This document shows, piece after piece, positions 1,428-10,791 of a stretch of 64,000 nucleotides of DNA. A program made the translations under genes and the position numbers. The notes under the pieces were generated by a model. That model did not search any database. It worked only from the letters and a program-made list of their open reading frames with translations, and had not been told where the DNA came from. The stretch is from Stutzerimonas frequens (GTDB taxonomy: Bacteria > Pseudomonadota > Gammaproteobacteria > Pseudomonadales > Pseudomonadaceae): positions 186,001 through 250,000 of the forward strand of contig NZ_JAMOHM010000005.1 of NCBI RefSeq assembly GCF_024448335.1, written 5' to 3'. Position 1 is the stretch's first letter. The number at the start of each line of letters is the position of its first letter.

Positions 1428-4100
1428 ATGAAAATACATACCGATGCCGCCAGCCGACTGGCGACCGAGGTTGTGACGCAGTTGCCAGTGCCATCACGGC
1501 TCGGCATGCTGCGCTTCGAGCGTTTGAACGAGCCGAGCTGGACACTGCTGTTTCTCGATCCGACCTGCGAGCGTGCATTCGGAGTCAGCGCCGGCGATCT
1601 CTGCTCGCTGGTCGACTCGCCCTACGCCAGTCTCATGGAACCCAGCGCTCGCCACCAGCTGCACGAAGACATCCAGCAGCAGCTGGCCGGGCGCAATCAC
1701 TATCAGGTCGGCTACCGGCTGCACACGCCTGACGGGGTCCTGGATATCACCGAACTCGGCGAAGTTTGCCAGCAATACGGTCGCGAGCTACTCAGGGGAT
1801 ACCTGTTGGCCGGCCGGCACCCCGAATCGGATCATGACCTGAGAACGCAGAACGCCCGCTTGCGCATGGCACTGCAGGAGCATGAGCAGGCCCAGGACGA
1901 GCATGTCGAGCACATGCTGCGCTCACGCACCCAGCAGAGCCTCATCGTCCGGCTGGCCAGGCACCGCTACGGCTCGGCCAACCCACAACTCGAAGCGGCG
2001 CAGCTGATCACCCAGGCGGCCTGCGAAGTCTACGAGGTCAACCGTGCCGCCATCTGGCACCTGAGCGGAACGCGCCTGGAGCCGATCGCCTGCTACGCAC
2101 GCATCAGCGATAGCTATGAAACCCTCGCGCCGCTCGAGCTGGCGCCTTTTCCCCGCTACTTGCAGGCGCTGCAGAGCGGTCGAGCAGTGGATGCACGGGA
2201 CGTGCTGCAGGATCATCGAACCAGCGAACTCGGCGGACAGCTCTACGCGCCCCTGGGTACCCAGTCGATACTCGACGCCAGCATCCGAGTCGGAGGCGAG
2301 GTGGTTGGCGTGCTGAGCCTGCAACACGATGGCAAACCGCGAATCTGGCAAGCCGACGAGATTGCGTTCGCCGGCGAGCTGGCCGATCAGTACGCTCAGG
2401 TACTGGCCAACCAGCAGCGCCTCAGTGCCACCCATATGCTCGGCCTGTTCCAGCGCGCCGTCGAGCAGAGTGCCAGCGCGTTCATCCTGGTCGACCGCGA
2501 AGGACGGGTGGAGTACGTCAATCCGGCCTTCACGACCATCAGCCAGTTCACCGAGTCCGAGGTTCGCGGTCAGCGTCTGGCAGACCTCAAAGCGCTGGAA
2601 AATCTCAGCGAGCTGCTGTTCGCCACGTCATCGGCACTGGCGCACAGCAACAGCTGGCAGGGCGAGTTCCGCTCGCGACGCAAGAACCTCGAGCCATACT
2701 GGGGCCAGCTGTCGATCTCCAAGGTCTTCAACGAGGACGGCATTCTCACCCACTACATCGGCATCTACGAAGACATCACCCGTAGCAAGCTGGCGCACCA
2801 GCACATCGAGCGCCTGGCCTACACCGACAATCTCACCAGCCTCGGCAATCGTCCCTATTTCATCCGCAGCCTCGAAGAACGCTTCGCAGCCGGCGCCGAG
2901 CCGCGGCTCTGCCTGCTGCTCGTCGATATCGACAACTTCAAGCGGATCAACGACAGCCTTGGCCACCAGACCGGCGACAAGTTGCTTGCCAGCCTCGCCC
3001 GCCGCCTGCGCAACGGATTGAGCCAGCAGAGCGTATTGGCGCGCTTCGCCAGCAACGAGTTCGCCCTGATGTTCGATGAAATGGAGCTCGAGGAGGGGAT
3101 TCGCCTTGCCGACCAGGTCTTGCACATCCTCGACAAGCCACTGTTCGTCGATAAACACCTGATCAGCGTCAGTGGCTCGCTCGGTCTCGCCTGTTCGCCC
3201 GAGCATGGCCGCGATCCCGAGACGCTGATGAAGCATGCCGGGCAGGCACTGCACAAAGCCAAGGCCAACGGCAAGAATCAGGTACAGGTGTTTACCGAGG
3301 CGCTGCACGCCGAGGCCAACTACAAACTGTTCGTCGAGAACAGCCTGCGCCGCGCGCTCATACAGAACGAGCTGGAGGTGTTCTATCAACCCAAGCTCTG
3401 CCTGCGCAGCGGTCGACTGCAGGGCCTGGAGGCACTACTGCGCTGGAACCATCCGGAAAAGGGCATGATCAGCCCGGATCAGTTCATCAGCGTTGCGGAA
3501 GAAACCGGCCTGATTATCCCCATTGGCAAATGGGTGGCGCGCGAAGCGTGCCGCATGGGTGTCCGGCTGTCGGCACTAGGGTTTGGCGCCCCTCAAGTGG
3601 CGATCAATCTGTCACCCAAGCAGTTCTCCGATCCCGACCTGCTCGGTTCGATCGCGACAATACTGCTCGAAGAGCAACTGCCACCTGCTCAGCTGGAGCT
3701 GGAACTGACCGAGAGCCTGCTGCTCGACGCCACCGAGGAAACCCGCCAGCAGCTGCTCGGCCTGAAGGCGCTGGGGCTGACCCTGGCGATGGATGATTTC
3801 GGCACAGGGTATTCCTCGCTCAGCTACCTGAAGAAGTTTCCCATCGACGTCATCAAGATCGACCGAAGCTTCATCAAGGACATCCCGGGCAACCAGGATG
3901 ACGTCGAGATCACTTCGGCAGTGATCGCCATGGCACGCAAGCTGAATCTGAAAGTCGTCGCCGAAGGCATCGAAACCGCCGAACAGCTAAGGTTCCTGCG
4001 CCAGCATCGCTGCGACATCGGCCAGGGCTACCTGTTCGACAGACCGATCTCCAGCAGCTCGCTGCACGAGGCGCTGCAGCGTTATCCCCACAATGCCTGA
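1428..4100 (+). CDS. dipA: PAS-GAF-PAS-GGDEF-EAL cyclic-di-GMP phosphodiesterase, DipA-like
   Basis: This 890-aa protein should hydrolyse cyclic di-GMP to pGpG. Domains in order: an N-terminal PAS-like region (about 20-130), a coiled linker, GAF (about 175-335), PAS (about 340-455), GGDEF (about 460-620) and EAL (about 635-885). The GGDEF site is degenerate, ASNEF at residues 541-545, so cyclase activity is unlikely; the domain may bind GTP or regulate. The EAL domain looks intact, with EALLRWNHP (E668), ELTES, DDFGTGYSSL, KIDRSF and EGIET. Position between aceF and msrA matches P. aeruginosa DipA (PA5017), the phosphodiesterase needed for biofilm dispersal. There is no membrane segment, so it is cytoplasmic. 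Confidence 0.92.
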   Translation: MKIHTDAASRLATEVVTQLPVPSRLGMLRFERLNEPSWTLLFLDPTCERAFGVSAGDLCSLVDSPYASLMEPSARHQLHEDIQQQLAGRNHYQVGYRLHTPDGVLDITELGEVCQQYGRELLRGYLLAGRHPESDHDLRTQNARLRMALQEHEQAQDEHVEHMLRSRTQQSLIVRLARHRYGSANPQLEAAQLITQAACEVYEVNRAAIWHLSGTRLEPIACYARISDSYETLAPLELAPFPRYLQALQSGRAVDARDVLQDHRTSELGGQLYAPLGTQSILDASIRVGGEVVGVLSLQHDGKPRIWQADEIAFAGELADQYAQVLANQQRLSATHMLGLFQRAVEQSASAFILVDREGRVEYVNPAFTTISQFTESEVRGQRLADLKALENLSELLFATSSALAHSNSWQGEFRSRRKNLEPYWGQLSISKVFNEDGILTHYIGIYEDITRSKLAHQHIERLAYTDNLTSLGNRPYFIRSLEERFAAGAEPRLCLLLVDIDNFKRINDSLGHQTGDKLLASLARRLRNGLSQQSVLARFASNEFALMFDEMELEEGIRLADQVLHILDKPLFVDKHLISVSGSLGLACSPEHGRDPETLMKHAGQALHKAKANGKNQVQVFTEALHAEANYKLFVENSLRRALIQNELEVFYQPKLCLRSGRLQGLEALLRWNHPEKGMISPDQFISVAEETGLIIPIGKWVAREACRMGVRLSALGFGAPQVAINLSPKQFSDPDLLGSIATILLEEQLPPAQLELELTESLLLDATEETRQQLLGLKALGLTLAMDDFGTGYSSLSYLKKFPIDVIKIDRSFIKDIPGNQDDVEITSAVIAMARKLNLKVVAEGIETAEQLRFLRQHRCDIGQGYLFDRPISSSSLHEALQRYPHNA

Positions 4101-4185
4101 GCATGCCAGGCGACGCGCGACGCTTTCGCTGCCGCCCGGCCTTTTGTAGCCTACAAGTCCAGCTCACGCTCTGACCGAGGCCCGC

Positions 4186-4833
4186 ATGTCCCTACGTTCG
4201 CAGATTCTGCTCAACAAACAGACATTGCCGACGGCCGAGCAGGCGTTGCCTGGCCGTTCGACACCGATGCCGGTTCCCGCTGCACACTATGTCAACGGGC
4301 ACCCGCTGCAACCGCCCTTTCCCCAAGGCCTCGAGCAGGCCGTTTTCGCGATGGGCTGTTTCTGGGGGGCGGAGCGGAGATTCTGGGAACTGCCTGGCGT
4401 CTGGACGACGGCTGTCGGTTACGCTGGCGGCCCGACGCCCAATCCGACTTACGAAGAAGTCTGTTCCGGCCTGACCGGCCATACCGAAGCCGTGCTGGTA
4501 GTTTTCGATCCACAGATCATCGATTACGAAACACTGCTGCGGGTCTTCTGGGAATCGCACAACCCCACCCAGGGGATGCGTCAGGGCAACGATGTCGGCA
4601 GCCAGTACCGATCCGCGATCTTTTGCATGGACGAGCGTCAGCGGGGTGCAGCGGAGGCCAGTTGCGAGCGATTCCAGCGTGGCCTCAGCGCTGCCGGCTA
4701 TCCCGCGATCACCACGGAAATTGCCGACGCTCCAGCTTTTTTCTATGCAGAGGCATACCACCAGCAATATCTGGCCAAGAATCCGGGGGGTTATTGCGGG
4801 CTGGGTGGAACAGGCGTGTGCCTGCCCGGCTGA
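4186..4833 (+). CDS. msrA: Peptide-methionine (S)-S-oxide reductase MsrA
   Basis: MsrA reduces methionine-S-sulfoxide in oxidised proteins. The catalytic signature [12 protein letters not shown] is present with the nucleophilic cysteine at residue 58, and GYAGG and HNPTQ follow as expected. The 215-aa length, with about 50 residues before the catalytic domain, is usual for the long gammaproteobacterial form. It lies about 85 bp after the DipA-like gene on the same strand, as in P. aeruginosa. The ATG at 4186 follows a purine-rich stretch (GAGGCCCGC) and is the first in frame. Confidence 0.96.
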
Positions 4834-4924: not shown

Positions 4925-4950
4925 AGAAAAACCCCGCCGAAGCGGGGCTC
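4925..4950 (-). terminator. Terminator of the Rsm-type small RNA
   Basis: On the minus strand GCCCCGC and GCGGGGT flank a TTCG tetraloop and are followed by TTTTCTTTT. No minus-strand protein gene ends nearby, since the acyl-CoA dehydrogenase stops about 300 bp upstream. That is what pointed to an RNA gene here. Confidence 0.88.
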
Positions 4951-5048
4951 TGCAGACTGAATCCTGACATCCATGATCGCGTGCCGTCCTGGCACCGCTC
5001 CTTGTTGGTCCGTGTTGTTGATCCGCGCTTTCCTTGTGCAACGTCCCT
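4925..5048 (-). ncRNA. RsmX/RsmY/RsmZ-family small RNA (predicted CsrA/RsmA sponge)
   Basis: Read on the minus strand, about 100 nt carry eight GGA motifs, beginning near AGGGACGTTGCACAAGGAAA and including GTGCC-AGGAC-GGCAC, a textbook hairpin presenting GGA in its loop. The RNA ends in a strong terminator with a TTCG loop and T-rich tail. TACTCT at 5056-5061 is a possible -10, putting the 5' end near 5047-5048 and the length near 124 nt, typical of RsmY/RsmZ. Two GacA-type boxes lie upstream. The family sequesters RsmA/RsmE to relieve translational repression of biofilm and secondary-metabolism genes. The position by msrA is not where P. aeruginosa keeps rsmY (by dnr) or rsmZ (by rpoS/fdxA), so this may be an extra copy. 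The ends are inferred. Confidence 0.85.
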
Positions 5049-5106
5049 ATGCAGTAGAGTACCGCCGTGCCTCGTGAGCCAGTAGTAGCCATTTTGCATC
5101 ACGCCC

Positions 5107-5124
5107 TGTAAGCCTTTTCCTACA
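5107..5124 (-). promoter_or_regulatory. GacA box 1 (proximal) for the Rsm-type RNA
   Basis: TGTAAG-N6-CCTACA differs at one base from the published GacA upstream activating sequence TGTAAG-N6-CTTACA. Its centre is about 68 bp before the predicted RNA start, near the usual UAS distance in fluorescent pseudomonads. Confidence 0.7.
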
Positions 5125-5147
5125 TCGCGTCATCCTTGACGCAATCC

Positions 5148-5165
5148 TGTAAGTCCAGGCTTACA
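5148..5165 (-). promoter_or_regulatory. GacA box 2 (distal), perfect consensus
   Basis: TGTAAG-N6-CTTACA is an exact match to the GacA binding palindrome and lies about 41 bp (four helical turns) upstream of box 1. The exact match next to a GGA-rich RNA is the main reason the RNA call is confident. Confidence 0.88.
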
Positions 5166-5192
5166 TGGCGCGAGTTTTATGACAGAAGGGGC

Positions 5193-5248
5193 GGCTTAAT
5201 CGTTCCACGTCATGGCCAAATAATTTCAAATTGCCCTTAGATTAAGCC
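5193..5248. repeat. Inverted repeat between the acyl-CoA dehydrogenase and the GacA boxes
   Basis: GGCTTAATC (5193-5201) and GATTAAGCC (5240-5248) are perfect 9-bp arms 38 bp apart. The region is AT-rich for this genome and lies upstream of the GacA boxes, so the repeat could be an extra regulator site. No T-run supports a terminator. Confidence 0.45.
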
Positions 5249-5255
5249 TCTCCAC

Positions 5256-7034
5256 TCAGAATTGTGCCGCTTCGAGCAGGTACAGCGAATCGCTTCCTGC
5301 TTTGACCGAGGCAGTCAGCGAGTGGATGCGTGGCAACAGCCGGGCGAAGTAGAAGCGCGCCGTGCCCAGCTTGCTCTGATAGAAATCGCCCTCGCCCTGC
5401 TTGGCCAGTGCAACCGCCGCCATCCGCGCCCACATGTAGGCGTACGCGGTGTAGCCGAACACGTGCAGGTACTCGACCGAAGCGGCGCCGATCTCGTTCG
5501 GATTGGTCTTGGCCTGATCGATCACCCAGGCGGTCAGCTCGTCCAGATTGTCCAGCGCAGCCTTGAGGGGCTCGGTGAACTCGCGCAGATCCGCACCGGC
5601 ACTGGCGACGAACGCGCGGATCTCATCGACGAACGCCTGATACATGGTGCCGCCGCTGCCGACAATCTTGCGTCCGACCAGGTCCAGCGCCTGGATGCCG
5701 TTGGTGCCTTCGTAGATCTGGGTAATACGGCAGTCGCGCACCAGTTGCTCCTGGCCCCATTCGCGAATGAAGCCGTGGCCGCCGAACACCTGCTGACCAT
5801 GCACAGTGGTTTCCAATCCCATGTCGGTGAGGAAGGCCTTGGCCACCGGCGTCAGCAGCGCAACCTGCGCCTCGGCCCGCTGCCGTGCCGCTTCGTCGTC
5901 GCTGAACTTGGCGATATCGAGCTGCAGCGCGACGTAGCTGGAAAACGCACGCCCACCTTCGTTCAAGGCCTTCATGGTCAGCAGCATGCGCCGCACATCG
6001 GGATGCACGATGATGGGATCGGCGGCCTTGTCCTGCGCCACCGGGCCAGTCGGGGCACGGCTCTGGATGCGCTCGCGAGCGTACTCGATGGCGCTCTGGT
6101 AGGAACGCTCGCCAGTGGCCAAGCCCTGGATACCGACGCCCAGACGCTCGTAGTTCATCATGGTGAACATCGCCGCCAGACCCTTGTTGGGTTCGCCAAC
6201 CATCCAGCCGGTGGCACCATCGAAGTTCATCACGCAGGTGGCGGACGCCTGGATGCCCATCTTGTGTTCGATCGAACCGCAGGACAGCGAGTTGCGCTCG
6301 CCGAGCGAGCCGTCGTCATTGACCAGAACCTTGGGCACCAGGAACAGGGAGATGCCGCGCGAACCGGCCGGCGCATCCGGCAGCTTGGCCAGCACCAGAT
6401 GAATGATGTTGTCGGTCAGGTCGTGCTCGCCGCCCGTGATGAAGATCTTGGTACCACTGACCTTGTAGGAGCCATCGGCCTGCGGCTCGGCCTTGGTGCG
6501 GATGATGCCGAGGTCGGTACCGGCATGCGGCTCGGTCAAGCACATGGAACCGGACCAGACGCCGGCGTACATGTTCGGCAGGTACTTCTGCTTAAGCTCT
6601 TCGCTGGCATGGGCGTAGATCGACAAGCAGGCGCCGGATGTCAGCATCGGATACAGACCGAACGCCAGGCTGGCGGAGTTCATCATCTCCTCCACCTGCG
6701 CCGAGATGACCTTGGGCATGCCCATGCCACCGAATGCCGGGTCACCACCGACACCCACCCAGCCACCTTCGGCGTACAGCTGATAGGCCTCGCGATAGCC
6801 GGCCGGTGTCGACACCGCACCGCCGTCCCAGCGGCAACCCTCTTCGTCACCACTGCGATTGAGCGGGGCGATGCTGTTGGCGGTGATCTTGCCGGCCTCT
6901 TCGAGGATCGCGTCGGCGGTTTCCGCGTCGACCACCTCGGCCAGGGCTGGCAGCGCCTGCCAGAGCTTCGGCGCATCGAAGACTTCATTCAGGACAAAAC
7001 GCATGTCGCGCAGCGGCGCTTGGTAGTCAGCCAT
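5256..7034 (-). CDS. Acyl-CoA dehydrogenase (FadE-type, about 600 aa)
   Basis: This 592-aa FAD enzyme should catalyse the first step of fatty-acid beta-oxidation. It shows the N-terminal MADYQAPLRDMRF stretch of large bacterial enzymes, CLTEPHAGTDLG and KIFITGGEHD in the FAD/substrate region, and QIYEGTNGIQALDLVGRK, which holds the catalytic glutamate. The ATG at 7034 is chosen over upstream in-frame codons because GAGGAA sits 8 bases before it. Its place after msrA resembles P. aeruginosa PA5020. No PsrA box is visible upstream, but an 8-bp inverted repeat is (see 7127-7156). Chain-length specificity cannot be read. Confidence 0.93.
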   Translation of the reverse strand: MADYQAPLRDMRFVLNEVFDAPKLWQALPALAEVVDAETADAILEEAGKITANSIAPLNRSGDEEGCRWDGGAVSTPAGYREAYQLYAEGGWVGVGGDPAFGGMGMPKVISAQVEEMMNSASLAFGLYPMLTSGACLSIYAHASEELKQKYLPNMYAGVWSGSMCLTEPHAGTDLGIIRTKAEPQADGSYKVSGTKIFITGGEHDLTDNIIHLVLAKLPDAPAGSRGISLFLVPKVLVNDDGSLGERNSLSCGSIEHKMGIQASATCVMNFDGATGWMVGEPNKGLAAMFTMMNYERLGVGIQGLATGERSYQSAIEYARERIQSRAPTGPVAQDKAADPIIVHPDVRRMLLTMKALNEGGRAFSSYVALQLDIAKFSDDEAARQRAEAQVALLTPVAKAFLTDMGLETTVHGQQVFGGHGFIREWGQEQLVRDCRITQIYEGTNGIQALDLVGRKIVGSGGTMYQAFVDEIRAFVASAGADLREFTEPLKAALDNLDELTAWVIDQAKTNPNEIGAASVEYLHVFGYTAYAYMWARMAAVALAKQGEGDFYQSKLGTARFYFARLLPRIHSLTASVKAGSDSLYLLEAAQF

Positions 7035-7126
7035 GGCAAGGTTCCTCGCAAGACACTGGGTTGCAGCCACTGTGGGCCGTTTCCAGCGAGTCTAACCGAA
7101 CAACCAGGACAGGATTAAGCGTCTTT

Positions 7127-7156
7127 TTATGACCAGATAGTTTTGTGCGGTCATAA
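7127..7156. promoter_or_regulatory. Inverted-repeat candidate operator upstream of the acyl-CoA dehydrogenase
   Basis: TTATGACC and GGTCATAA are perfect 8-bp arms with a 14-bp spacer, about 93-122 bp before the start at 7034. The form suits a dimeric regulator, but I do not recognise the motif. The site lies only 17 bp from the stop of the diguanylate cyclase gene. Confidence 0.4.
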
Positions 7157-7172
7157 GCGAACCGCTACAGCC

Positions 7173-8462
7173 CTAACGCGAATGGCCGGCCATACGCACT
7201 GCGCCGCGCCCGCTGCCATGCACCCGAACACAATTGCGGCCGGCCTTCTTGGCGCCATACAGCGCCTGATCGGCCGCCTTGATGACTTCCTCCGGGCTGC
7301 GCTGGTCGCTCTGCCGCTCGGCCACCCCGATACTGATGGTCACCGACACCTGCGCTGTCGATGAATGACCACGCGCCATACGTCCCTGGCGGTCATCCTT
7401 GGGCCGCTTGCTGGCGTCACGCAGTTGCAGGGCATACCCCTCAATCGCTTGGCGGACAGCCTCCAGGTGCGGCAGACACTGCTCGACGCTACGCCCCGGA
7501 AACACCAGAGTGAACTCCTCGCCACCGTAGCGATAGGCGCGCCCGCCACCACCGACCTTGCGTAGGCGGCTGGCCACCATTTTCAGCACCTGGTCGCCGA
7601 CATCATGCCCATGGGTATCGTTGAAACTCTTGAAATGATCCACGTCCGCCATGGCCAGCACGTACTGCCGGCCGAGGCGCTGCAGCCGCTCGTTCAGCGC
7701 ACGCCGCCCCGGCAGACCGGTCAGCTCGTCGCGAAAGGCCATGAGATAGGCTTCGTGAGCGATGGCCACGACCAGCATGAGCAACACGTGGCTGCTGAGG
7801 ATGTTCAGTGCGGCGATGCGACTGAACGTCTGAGGCAGCATCAGCAGCAAGGCGATCAGCGCGACGATCTGCGCCGCATGTGAAGGCCTGGGCTGCCGCA
7901 GGTACTGCACCACCAGCAACGCCAGCGCAACGATGAAAGCGGGATAGGCCAGCTGGATGAGCGGCAGCCAATCGGCCTGCAGCGATGGCCAGCGGATCAC
8001 CACCAGCCAGGCGTGCAGCGCCTCCGGAAATCGCTTCGCCAACGCGACCGCAACGACGCCCAGGGCAAACAGCACCGCCGCCCGGGCCAGACCATCCTGT
8101 GCCAGGTGGCTGCGCTCTCGCCACAGGCCATACAAGCCATATAAAAGCGGTAGCAACAGACTGCACAGATGGAACGTCAGCGCCGCGTCGTCCAGCAATC
8201 TGCCATGGGCCCGGTAATAGTCGGCGTGAGTGTCGAGCAGGAAATAGACGATATAGACGCAAAGCAGCAGGAATAGCTCGCGAATGCGGCCGTACATCGC
8301 GCACAGCGCCCCACCGAGCAGCAACAGTACCGTCGGCAGCACGTTGTACAGCGAAGTGAAGAACTCGTTCAGCACGACCTGGCGTGCGATCGCCTCGCCG
8401 CCAAGCAGCAATGCCAGCGGTGCAAGGAAGTGACTGAAGCGAGGCGAATAGGGGCGCGACAC
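7173..8462 (-). CDS. Membrane-anchored diguanylate cyclase (GGDEF)
   Basis: This 429-aa protein should make cyclic di-GMP from GTP. The first about 245 residues form roughly seven or eight hydrophobic segments, a membrane sensor module of no named family that I can identify. The C-terminal GGDEF domain has an intact GGEEF active site within RYGGEEFTLVF, plus DELTGLPGRRAL and DVDHFKSFNDTHGHDVGD for metal and GTP binding. The longest frame starts at a GTG (8462) with no clear Shine-Dalgarno, so the start is uncertain, though the first membrane helix supports it. It is monocistronic, between two same-strand acyl-CoA dehydrogenases. Confidence 0.9.
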   Translation of the reverse strand: MSRPYSPRFSHFLAPLALLLGGEAIARQVVLNEFFTSLYNVLPTVLLLLGGALCAMYGRIRELFLLLCVYIVYFLLDTHADYYRAHGRLLDDAALTFHLCSLLLPLLYGLYGLWRERSHLAQDGLARAAVLFALGVVAVALAKRFPEALHAWLVVIRWPSLQADWLPLIQLAYPAFIVALALLVVQYLRQPRPSHAAQIVALIALLLMLPQTFSRIAALNILSSHVLLMLVVAIAHEAYLMAFRDELTGLPGRRALNERLQRLGRQYVLAMADVDHFKSFNDTHGHDVGDQVLKMVASRLRKVGGGGRAYRYGGEEFTLVFPGRSVEQCLPHLEAVRQAIEGYALQLRDASKRPKDDRQGRMARGHSSTAQVSVTISIGVAERQSDQRSPEEVIKAADQALYGAKKAGRNCVRVHGSGRGAVRMAGHSR

Positions 8463-8570
8463 GAGAATACCGGCGCAGCGAGAAAAGCTGGCATTTTGCC
8501 TTAACGGCTACGGATGTGCAGCCAAAAGGTCGAAAAGCACAGTTGTCTTGCAGACCGGCCGAAAGCGGCG

Positions 8571-8602
8571 CAAAAAAAAGCCGCTGCAGATGCAGCGGCC
8601 TT
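8571..8602 (-). terminator. Terminator of the 8619-10424 acyl-CoA dehydrogenase
   Basis: On the minus strand GCCGCTGCA and TGCAGCGGC flank a very short loop and are followed by eight T residues, about 17 bp past the stop codon. Confidence 0.9.
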
Positions 8603-8618
8603 CTTCAGCAACAACCGA

Positions 8619-10424
8619 TCAGTAACCGAGGGCGAAATCTTCCTCGGCCATCTCCATCAGGTTGTCGGCGCCGGACAGCATGGCGTCCACATGGGTACGG
8701 GTACGCGGCAGGATGCGTGCGAAGTAGAAGCGAGCAGTCTGCAGCTTGGCCTTGTAGAAGCCCTCTTCCTCGGTGCCGGCCGCCAGCTTCTCGGCTGCGA
8801 CGCGCGCCATGTCGGCCCAGAAGTAGGCCAGGCATGCATAGCCGGAGTACATCAGATAGTCGACCGATGCGGCACCGACTTCCTCGCGGTTCTTCATGGC
8901 GGCCATACCGACCTTCATGGTCAGCTCGCCCCATTCCTTGTTCAGCTTGGCCAGCGGCTCGACGAATTCCTTGACGGTATCGTTGCCTTCGTTGGCCTGG
9001 CAGAACTTGTGCACGATCTTGGTGAAGCCCTTGAGCGCCTCGCCCTGAGTCATCAGCACCTTGCGGCCGAGCAGGTCGAGCGCCTGGATGCCGGTGGTGC
9101 CTTCGTACAGGCAGGAGATGCGGCTGTCGCGCACGTTCTGCTCCATGCCCCACTCGGCGATGAAGCCGTGGCCACCGTAGATCTGCACGCCGTGGTTGGC
9201 CGCTTCGAAGCCGACTTCGGTCATGAACGCCTTGGCGATCGGGGTGAGGAAGGCCAGCATGGCGTCAGCCGCCTTGCGCTGCTCCTCGTCCTGGCTGCGC
9301 TGCATCACGTCGACCTGCTTGGCGGCGAAGTAGAGCATGGCGCGGTTGCCTTCGGCGAAGGCCTTCATGGTCAGCAGCATGCGGCGCACGTCCGGATGCA
9401 CGATGATCGGGTCGGCGGCCTTTTCCGGAGCCTTGGGGCCGGTCAGCGAACGCATCTGCAGACGCTCGCGGGCGTACTTGATGCCGCCCTGGAAGGCCAC
9501 TTCGGCGTGGGCCAGGCCCTGCAGCGCGGTACCCAGGCGCGCGGTGTTCATGAACGTGAACATGCAGTTCAGCCCCTTGTTCGGCGGGCCGATCAGGAAG
9601 CCAGTGGCGCCGTCGAAGTTCATCACGCAGGTGGCGTTGCCGTGGATACCCATCTTGTGCTCGATGGAGCCGCAGGACACGCCGTTGCGCTCGCCCGCCT
9701 CGCCTTCGGCGTTCGGCAGGAACTTCGGCACGATGAACAGGGAGATCCCCTTGGTACCGGCAGGGGCGTCGGGCAGGCGGGCCAGTACGATGTGGACGAT
9801 GTTCTCGGCCATGTCGTGCTCGCCAGCGGAGATGAAGATCTTGGTGCCGGTGACCTTGTAGCTGCCGTCGGCCTGCGGCTCGGCCTTGGTGCGTAGCATG
9901 CCCAGGTCGGTACCGCAGTGCGGCTCGGTCAGGCACATGGTGCCGGTCCACTGGCCGGATACCAGCTTGGTCAGGTAGGTCTGCTGCTGCTCGGGAGTCC
10001 CGTGGGCATGCAGGGTGTTCATGGCGCCGTGGGACAGGCCGGGGTACATGCCCCAGGACCAGTTGGCTTCACCGATCATTTCACTCATGGCCATGCCGAG
10101 AGACTCCGGCAGGCCCTGGCCGCCGTGCTCGACGTCGTGGGCCAGGCTCGGCCAGCCGCCTTCGACGAACTGCTGATAGGCCTCCTTGAAGCCGGTCGGC
10201 GTCTTCACGCCGGACTCGCTCCAGGTACAGCCCTCGGTATCGCCGACGCGGTTCAGCGGTGCCAGCACCTGCTCACAGAACTTCGCGCCTTCATCGAGAA
10301 TGGCATTGACCATGTCCGGGGTGGCGTCTTCACATCCCGGGAGGCTCTGATAGTGCGCCTCGTAGCCGAGCAGCTCGTCACGTACGAAGCGGATATCGCG
10401 CAAGGGGGCCTTGTAATCGGGCAT
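8619..10424 (-). CDS. Acyl-CoA dehydrogenase with PsrA-type operator (FadE1-like)
   Basis: This 601-aa FAD acyl-CoA dehydrogenase is parallel to the 5256-7034 enzyme. [13 protein letters not shown] opens it, [12 protein letters not shown] and [10 protein letters not shown] follow, and [18 protein letters not shown] carries the catalytic glutamate. The ATG at 10424 has GAGG 8 bases upstream. Its place by the 82-aa gene and bioD matches P. aeruginosa PA0506, which I recall as a PsrA-controlled long-chain dehydrogenase. Two overlapping PsrA boxes about 100 bp upstream fit fatty-acid induction. The exact substrate range is not visible. Confidence 0.93.
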
Positions 10425-10791
10425 AGCGTAAACCTCAGCGGTGAGTTCTTGTTGCAGCTGACCGGCAAGTCCGGCCATTCGAATTCGATTCCGACCGTCG
10501 GACGATACGCCCGACGGGTCAAACAGGCGTTTGAAACATACGTTTCGACCTGAGCGATGTCAAGCAGGGGAAGGGTCGCCATCGATCGGCTGAATCGGCC
10601 AGATTACGGGCACAGTCGCACCGGCCTCGACGCCAGGCAAGGCAGATGGGTCTACTGGAAATGCATTGTTGCAATCACTTGTCGGGGTGGCGTAAGCGAT
10701 GGCGAGCCAGACAACGAGCGTGGAAACAGCCGAACAGGCGCCTGGCAGAGCGGCGCGCTCGCAGCAAGAGAATGGGGAGCGGGAAGCTCGA
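10425..10791. other. Intergenic region between the acyl-CoA dehydrogenase and the 82-aa gene
   Basis: About 367 bp without a convincing gene. The left third holds the dehydrogenase leader and the PsrA-type boxes (10520-10546). From 10547 to 10791 I see no coding frame with a ribosome site, no terminator hairpin with a T-run, and no other strong motif. Confidence 0.6.
10520..10546. promoter_or_regulatory. Double PsrA-type operator
   Basis: CAAACAGGCGTTTG (10520-10533) and GAAACATACGTTTC (10533-10546) each fit the PsrA consensus (G/C)AAAC-N2-4-GTTT(G/C) exactly and share one base. PsrA represses beta-oxidation genes and is released by long-chain acyl signals, which fits the adjacent acyl-CoA dehydrogenase. 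Confidence 0.8.

Follow-up and report, generated by a model that had tools for sequence, protein, structure and literature searches.

A conserved hairpin built from two GacA-type boxes precedes rsmY in Stutzerimonas and may mark a second, upstream start

RsmY acts as a hub through which pseudomonads control biofilm, nitrogen fixation and virulence, and the usual view is of a 120-nt RNA made from one Gac promoter. In Pseudomonas stutzeri A1501, according to the accessible passages of PMC8249394, RsmY binds RsmA with a Kd of 55 nM and depends on GacA: its level is strongly reduced in a gacA mutant, and its promoter carries a GacA site. The same passages count only RsmY and RsmZ in this strain, and an excerpt of PMC4950607, citing an earlier paper, reports several rsmX copies there. 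A1501 RsmY lies between PST_3857 and PST_3858 and binds Hfq, as described in part of PMC11332353. For P. aeruginosa, the corresponding excerpts state that GacA binds only upstream of rsmY and rsmZ (PMC9159945) and place a GacA box at -75 (PMC4950607).

We analyzed a 64,000-nt stretch of a Stutzerimonas frequens genome (here referred to as the window), in which a first-pass annotation had proposed a small RNA of the Gac/Rsm type. That call was borne out by the Rfam model RF00195 (RsmY), which matches positions 4928 to 5048 on the minus strand over its full length (model positions 1 to 121 of 121) with 82.9 bits against a cut-off of 57. RsmY is a single copy by this model, as the rest of the genome holds nothing above the cut-off. 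The eight GGA motifs noticed at first pass were recovered in the 121-nt RNA, compared to an average of 3.8 in dinucleotide shuffles, 1 of 2,000 of which reached eight; among the 127,758 121-mers of the window, both strands included, 37 contain eight, all of them inside 4926 to 5082 on the minus strand. The GGA motifs end, as claimed, in an intrinsic terminator (4928 to 4951, minus strand), which corresponds to the 3' hairpin of the Rfam match and is the one terminator-like site found by the scan, at 4951 to 4928 (shuffles of the region average 0.7). The GGA-containing hairpin GTGCC-AGGAC-GGCAC was likewise located, at 4981 to 4995 on the minus strand, where the Rfam consensus is paired. The local fold of RsmY alone is unremarkable (z = -0.97). 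Taking the start of rsmY from the Rfam family, a conserved TA.TCT about 7 nt before it (5056 to 5061, minus strand) is the probable -10 region of the canonical promoter; a scan of the rsmY promoter with the sigma-70 consensus returned no site. We are nearly certain that the locus is rsmY, at which phosphorylated GacA bound to the proximal box described below would drive a 121-nt RNA whose GGA motifs sequester RsmA and so free target mRNAs. Homology establishes this role, that of an RsmA sponge under Gac control, and both RsmA binding and GacA dependence in the S. frequens strain are predicted from A1501 RsmY.

The first-pass annotation had also suggested that this might be an additional Gac/Rsm RNA distinct from RsmY, since the location differs from that of rsmY and rsmZ in P. 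aeruginosa. That difference is one of lineage in where rsmY sits. The proposed search with the RsmY, RsmZ and RsmX models placed RsmY at the locus and found one rsmZ and two rsmX elsewhere, with no separate RsmY over the cut-off in the genome. Comparison of rsm loci across the genus, also proposed at first pass, found rsmY downstream of one and the same acyl-CoA dehydrogenase gene in all 56 genomes searched, and RsmY has already been named in A1501. An additional RNA was therefore rejected and is, in our estimation, extremely improbable.

The acyl-CoA dehydrogenase gene (5256 to 7070, minus strand; identified by Pfam) lies upstream of rsmY on the same strand. On the other side, msrA (4186 to 4833, plus strand; PF01625 and TIGR00401) is convergent with rsmY; TIGR00401 confirmed the first-pass naming of this neighbor. 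It is downstream of rsmY in 50 of the 56 genus genomes (in G032 only 1.4 kb away), and the six genomes without it there include G034, which is cut by a contig end. Since rsmY is over the cut-off and follows the dehydrogenase gene in all genus genomes, with msrA downstream in most, it is at its ordinary place in the lineage. A c-di-GMP phosphodiesterase-type gene with GAF-PAS-GGDEF-EAL domains in Pfam (1428 to 4100, plus strand) had been called dipA; the DipA name does not occur among the 25 NCBIfam families listed of the 37 matched. Elsewhere in the window, two related acyl-CoA dehydrogenase genes (about 58% identical) flank a GGDEF gene (5256 to 10478, minus strand).

The remaining Gac/Rsm parts are also present. 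Matches over the Rfam cut-offs were found for rsmY in 56, rsmZ in 55 and rsmX in 46 of the 56 genus genomes. In the genome of the window, the single rsmZ scores 94.7 bits and lies beside an ORF that we take to be rpoS, and the two rsmX genes (93.7 and 81.8 bits) are in tandem on the minus strand at L158:3783-3892 and 4006-4114 (G000:C1:338782-338891 and 339005-339113), each with a degenerate GacA box near -63. The gacA gene adjoins uvrC (NF007018, 323 bits against a cut-off of 280), and there is one CsrA-family gene. Genome G052 has two rsmZ matches over the cut-off, and both of its rsmY GacA boxes are degenerate.

With up to two mismatches, the GacA palindrome TGTAAG-N6-CTTACA occurs at two places in the 64 kb, both upstream of rsmY on the minus strand: a proximal box at 5107 to 5124 (one mismatch, centre at -67.5) and a distal GacA-like box at 5148 to 5165 (no mismatch, centre at -108.5). 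Their centres are 41 bp apart, and the pattern scan thus agrees with the first-pass description of one perfect and one singly mismatched palindrome. Allowing up to one mismatch, a scan of the complete genome gave six sites for the palindrome, including three exact ones, compared to two for a reversed control pattern. Across the genus, a box with up to two mismatches lies between -65 and -76 in 55 of 56 genomes and between -101 and -112 in 49 of 56, while none was found in the 13 other bins tested in these 56 genomes. We also examined 82 named loci, of which 26 are Stutzerimonas-like by their neighboring proteins (our own cut; five are labelled only Pseudomonas) and 56 are others. One locus in each group (L073 and L047) did not extend far enough for the upstream region to be tested, so that 25 and 55 were used; the 55 include six loci without a GacA box (L029, L036, L043, L061, L069 and L088), which are probably chance matches. 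A box in the distal bin was found in 24 of the 25 Stutzerimonas-like loci versus 0 of the 55 others, and with up to two mismatches before rsmX in 0 of 30 loci (31 minus L140). The first-pass view that both boxes lie at the distance expected of GacA sites holds for the proximal box; the distal box makes better sense as the strand that pairs with the proximal box in an RNA hairpin, though it may bind GacA as well.

Related arrangements were seen at a few other places. The third exact palindrome of the genome (L155:2679-2696; G000:C7:46178-46195) is embedded in a longer inverted repeat that is also perfect; about 280 bp downstream comes an ORF that we take to be a TssA-like type VI secretion gene, and no Rfam match was obtained at this site. 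In Denitrificimonas and relatives (L059, L052 and L056), the single GacA box at about -58 from rsmY is part of a longer perfect palindrome, GCGCAA...TTGCGC; L056 and L052 also give a weak partial match to the hairpin model described below. In Pseudomonas sp. UBA2684 (L060), a hairpin with a GGA loop, GGCCGCC-AGGGAT-GGCGGGCC, lies upstream of the single GacA box before rsmY and may be due to chance.

The two palindromes upstream of rsmY pair with each other as the arms of one hairpin, a point that had been missed at first pass. This long hairpin (5099 to 5173, minus strand) was delimited by folding, covariation and a covariance model (R1, match 5091 to 5177), and it is made up of an outer stem, a box-box stem with the distal box as its 5' arm and the proximal box as its 3' arm, and an apical hairpin. 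An 87-nt segment folds with -44.2 kcal/mol (z = -8.56), and 0 of 200 shuffles were as good. Of the 45 distinct genus promoters, all have a z score below -2 (mean, -5.5) and pair box to box in the minimum-energy fold. The apical hairpin, GCGTC-AAGGAT-GACGC (5127 to 5142, minus strand), is supported by covariation and by conservation of ANGGA in its ANGGAN loop, the outer A and T of which pair in the minimum-energy fold. GGA is in the apical loop of 36 of 45 minimum-energy folds, and ANGGA is at the tip in 40 of 43 distinct windows, a count that leaves out G051, where GGA is lacking; the apical GGA is missing from three genomes (G022, G039 and G051). Judged by its motif, an ANGGAN loop on a short covarying stem, the apical hairpin is predicted to be an RsmA/CsrA-type site. 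We found no description of the hairpin or of two boxes before rsmY of Stutzerimonas in the literature searched, which comprised abstracts and passages of openly accessible papers; as a genus-wide element, the hairpin looks new.

The simplest alternative is that the locus is a plain rsmY with tandem GacA boxes, at which two GacA dimers bound 41 to 42 bp apart (about four helical turns) co-operate. The hairpin would then be incidental, since two copies of any palindrome are able to pair. The box spacing fits such an arrangement, with 40 of the 43 distinct promoters at 41 or 42 bp, as does the far stronger conservation of the half-sites relative to the spacers and flanks (entropies of 0.34, 1.14 and 1.53 for the distal box and 0.13, 1.03 and 1.12 for the proximal box; for both measures, five genomes without a clear distal box were excluded). 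Excerpts from the literature are also in line with it: GacA/UvrY bind the palindrome, with a partial second copy at E. coli csrB, and PMC4950607 mentions UAS1 and UAS2 for P. aeruginosa rsmY and rsmZ, the assignment of gene to UAS not being stated in that passage. Against this, many distal boxes have lost bases of the GacA consensus (TGTAGT, TGTAGC), and these deviations also fit pairing with the proximal box. Tandem boxes further predict neither a conserved ANGGA loop nor covariation of the spacers, the linker stem and the outer stem.

Since box-box pairing is trivial for palindromes, the covariation tests were aimed at the parts that palindromy does not explain. Of the 56 genus genomes, 54 were used in the hairpin work; G008 and G024, which have no hairpin, were excluded from covariation. 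Identical promoters were merged, giving 45 rows in alignment A3 and 43 in A2, and changes were counted on a single-gene tree (acyl-CoA dehydrogenase). The covariation score of the apical stem was 0.597 (43 distinct sequences), compared to 0.291 when shuffled and at most 0.190 when slid, and that of the spacers, which the GacA consensus leaves free, was 0.352 (45 distinct sequences), compared to 0.151 when shuffled and at most 0.115 when slid. None of 5,000 shuffles paired the spacers between the boxes as well. Pair-keeping double changes on the tree numbered 10 in the apical stem, versus 0 to 3 in six slides, and 6 in the spacers, versus 0 to 1 in ten slides; as the structure was taken from one of the aligned sequences, it is favored over its slid versions. 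The outer stem also covaries. Within the half-sites, pair 30-64 is U-A in 24 promoters, U-G in 11 and C-G in 9, so where one box departs from the GacA consensus, the other often carries the matching change.

The measures that the tool rates as more robust than the covariation score gave a mixed picture. Pairs changed on both sides did not beat shuffles (apical stem, 5 versus 5.1; spacers, 4 versus 4.4), whereas the number of pair types was above shuffles in the apical stem (20 versus 16.1; 1 of 500 as high) and not in the spacers (12 versus 11.4; 227 of 500 as high). Single changes in the spacers broke 22 pairs and kept 17, no better than in slid controls. RNAalifold, run on the MAFFT alignment A3, recovered 12 box-box pairs and neither the apical nor the outer stem. 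By the covariation tests, tandem GacA boxes were demoted as a full explanation, and we regard this account as doubtful.

The complementarity of the arms could also stem from quasipalindrome correction, in which template switching keeps the arms matched with no selection for RNA structure. Short, close inverted repeats are a known substrate of this process, and the arms are repeats of that kind. The reverse complement moreover folds nearly as well as the rsmY strand (mean z of -4.9 for the 45 promoters). Template switching leaves unexplained, however, the ANGGA loop, the co-conserved promoter-like motif described below and the excess of G-U pairs over A-C mismatches in the apical and outer stems. 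At 54:19 for the apical and 60:32 for the outer stem, this excess favors an RNA on the rsmY strand. In the half-sites, the ratio of 38:6 is not specific, given that the proximal box paired with itself gives 47:10, and in the spacers the excess is slight (20:16). We consider quasipalindrome correction a poor candidate.

R1 was built from 45 genus promoters. In the genome of the window, it matched a single place, with 85.6 bits on the rsmY strand and 27.4 bits on the other strand. In the family, 56 of 248 genomes gave a match, of which the 53 from the genus are matches by construction and three are from outside it. Two of these (G091 and G217) are hairpins with no RsmY match in the surrounding stretch. 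The third, G092, belongs to another genus and has an acyl-CoA dehydrogenase that is 70% identical, an RsmY match of 80.1 bits and, upstream of rsmY, TGAAATTA, GAAC-N19-TCTTA, two boxes 41 bp apart and a hairpin of -48 kcal/mol. Its hairpin tip contains GGGA; in the minimum-energy fold, the loop is GGG and the A of GGA is paired. By sequence, G092 is the sole independent member among the R1 matches. The named relatives on which R1 was also run are largely of the same species, and the six probable chance loci were left out of that run.

Directly before the hairpin, we found a conserved promoter-like motif of the sigma-E/ECF type, GGAAC-N18-GTCATA (5178 to 5206, minus strand), and upstream of this a conserved TGAAATTA element (5221 to 5228, minus strand), which was found without mismatch in 50 of the 56 genus genomes and also occurs in L216, from another genus. 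The motif in the form GAAC-N18/19-TCNTA is carried by 53 of the 56 genus genomes and by all 25 named relatives, compared to none of the 55 other named loci; G008 and G024 lack it together with the hairpin. Its spacing and hexamers resemble those of sigma-E/AlgU promoters (-35 GGAAC/GAACTT and -10 TCnnA, 16 to 17 bp apart) and of the wider ECF class, N18/19 being N16/17 once a six-base -35 is counted. For AlgU, the cited part of a paper on A1501 algU gives the consensus GAACTT-N16/17-TCCAA. In the genome of the window, exact GGAAC-N17/18-GTCATA occurs at one site, versus 4 for a reversed control pattern, so that no regulon sharing the motif is visible; within one genome, then, its frequency does not exceed chance, and its weight comes from conservation. 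We infer that 5178 to 5206 is a putative sigma-E/AlgU-type promoter. A start 5 to 8 nt downstream, as expected from such a promoter, would coincide with the base of the hairpin.

The hairpin might instead be the 3' end of an acyl-CoA dehydrogenase mRNA that reads through, with RsmA or an RNase acting on the tail and the rsmY promoter unaffected. Such read-through is compatible with the position of the dehydrogenase gene, upstream and in the same orientation in all 56 genus genomes, and with our scan, which showed no terminator-like site between the dehydrogenase stop and the hairpin. Against such a tail, the hairpin follows directly on a conserved promoter-like motif that co-occurs with it, and no U-tract comes behind it. 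We judge this reading unlikely.

The reading that we moderately favor is an ordinary GacA-driven rsmY with a second, GacA-independent start that would give a longer RsmY with a 5' RsmA-binding hairpin. A second start would tie together the hairpin and the motif preceding it, as well as the loop and the strand of the hairpin. RNA would begin about 5 to 8 nt downstream of the sigma-E/ECF-type motif, at the hairpin foot, and would contain the two GacA boxes as paired arms, the ANGGAN loop at the tip and then RsmY, ending at the terminator after about 245 nt; RsmA would bind the extra loop. With the GacA operators inside the long transcript, bound GacA should block the upstream start while driving the downstream one, and rsmY would then switch between stress-type and Gac-type input. 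That the lineage has a second, upstream rsmY start at all we hold to be evenly balanced, its transcription, sigma factor, RsmA binding and switch being deduced from sequence. In its strictest form, which we put forward tentatively as a possibility, the rsmY GacA operator is itself transcribed: a sigma-E-type promoter would give a long RsmY whose 5' hairpin is the operator plus its mirror copy with an RsmA-binding loop, one stretch would act both as GacA switch and as part of a sponge RNA, and the two inputs would be mutually exclusive. We counted in favor of a second start that rsmY of P. brassicacearum, unlike rsmX, is not exclusively GacA dependent in the accessible part of PMC7911923. Counted against it is a passage on an A1501 algU mutant, cited in part, which names rsmA and rsmZ as reduced and does not name rsmY, and the single exact copy of the motif in the genome likewise counts against it. 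The strong reduction of rsmY in the A1501 gacA mutant implies that a GacA-independent start would be minor there.

The gene is already known, and the novelty lies in the upstream module. If the second start is real, a genus-wide hairpin with its own promoter-like motif adds a second input and a second RNA form to RsmY. The locus also cautions that sites taken from DNA for "tandem GacA boxes" can be opposite strands of one RNA stem. Mutants of rsmY, gacA, rsmA and algU exist in A1501, according to excerpts of PMC8249394 and of the algU paper.

Compared with known systems, the S. frequens RNA agrees with RsmY (RF00195) and with A1501 RsmY in length, sequence, GGA motifs, terminator, one GacA box at about -67 and a single copy over the cut-off. 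It differs from P. aeruginosa rsmY in its site, between the acyl-CoA dehydrogenase gene and msrA, as in certain other Pseudomonadaceae, Denitrificimonas among them, and from RsmY of the 55 other named loci in having the upstream hairpin and the promoter-like motif. The proximal box matches the GacA/UvrY UAS (TGTAAG-N6-CTTACA) in position and sequence; unlike that UAS, it is joined by a second box, at -108, and the pairing between the two extends in part to the spacer; this second box has no counterpart in the 55 other named loci. CsrA/RsmA-binding hairpins have a stem of five to six pairs with an ANGGAN loop at the tip, and the apical hairpin has the same stem and loop form, whereas here it tops a long stem that is formed by a transcription-factor operator, and binding is putative. 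RsmW of P. aeruginosa, as described in the accessible part of PMC4950607, is likewise an RsmA-binding RNA with GGA loops that is transcribed other than from a Gac promoter; it is a separate gene, from the PA4570 3' UTR, whereas the S. frequens element would be a 5' extension of RsmY itself.
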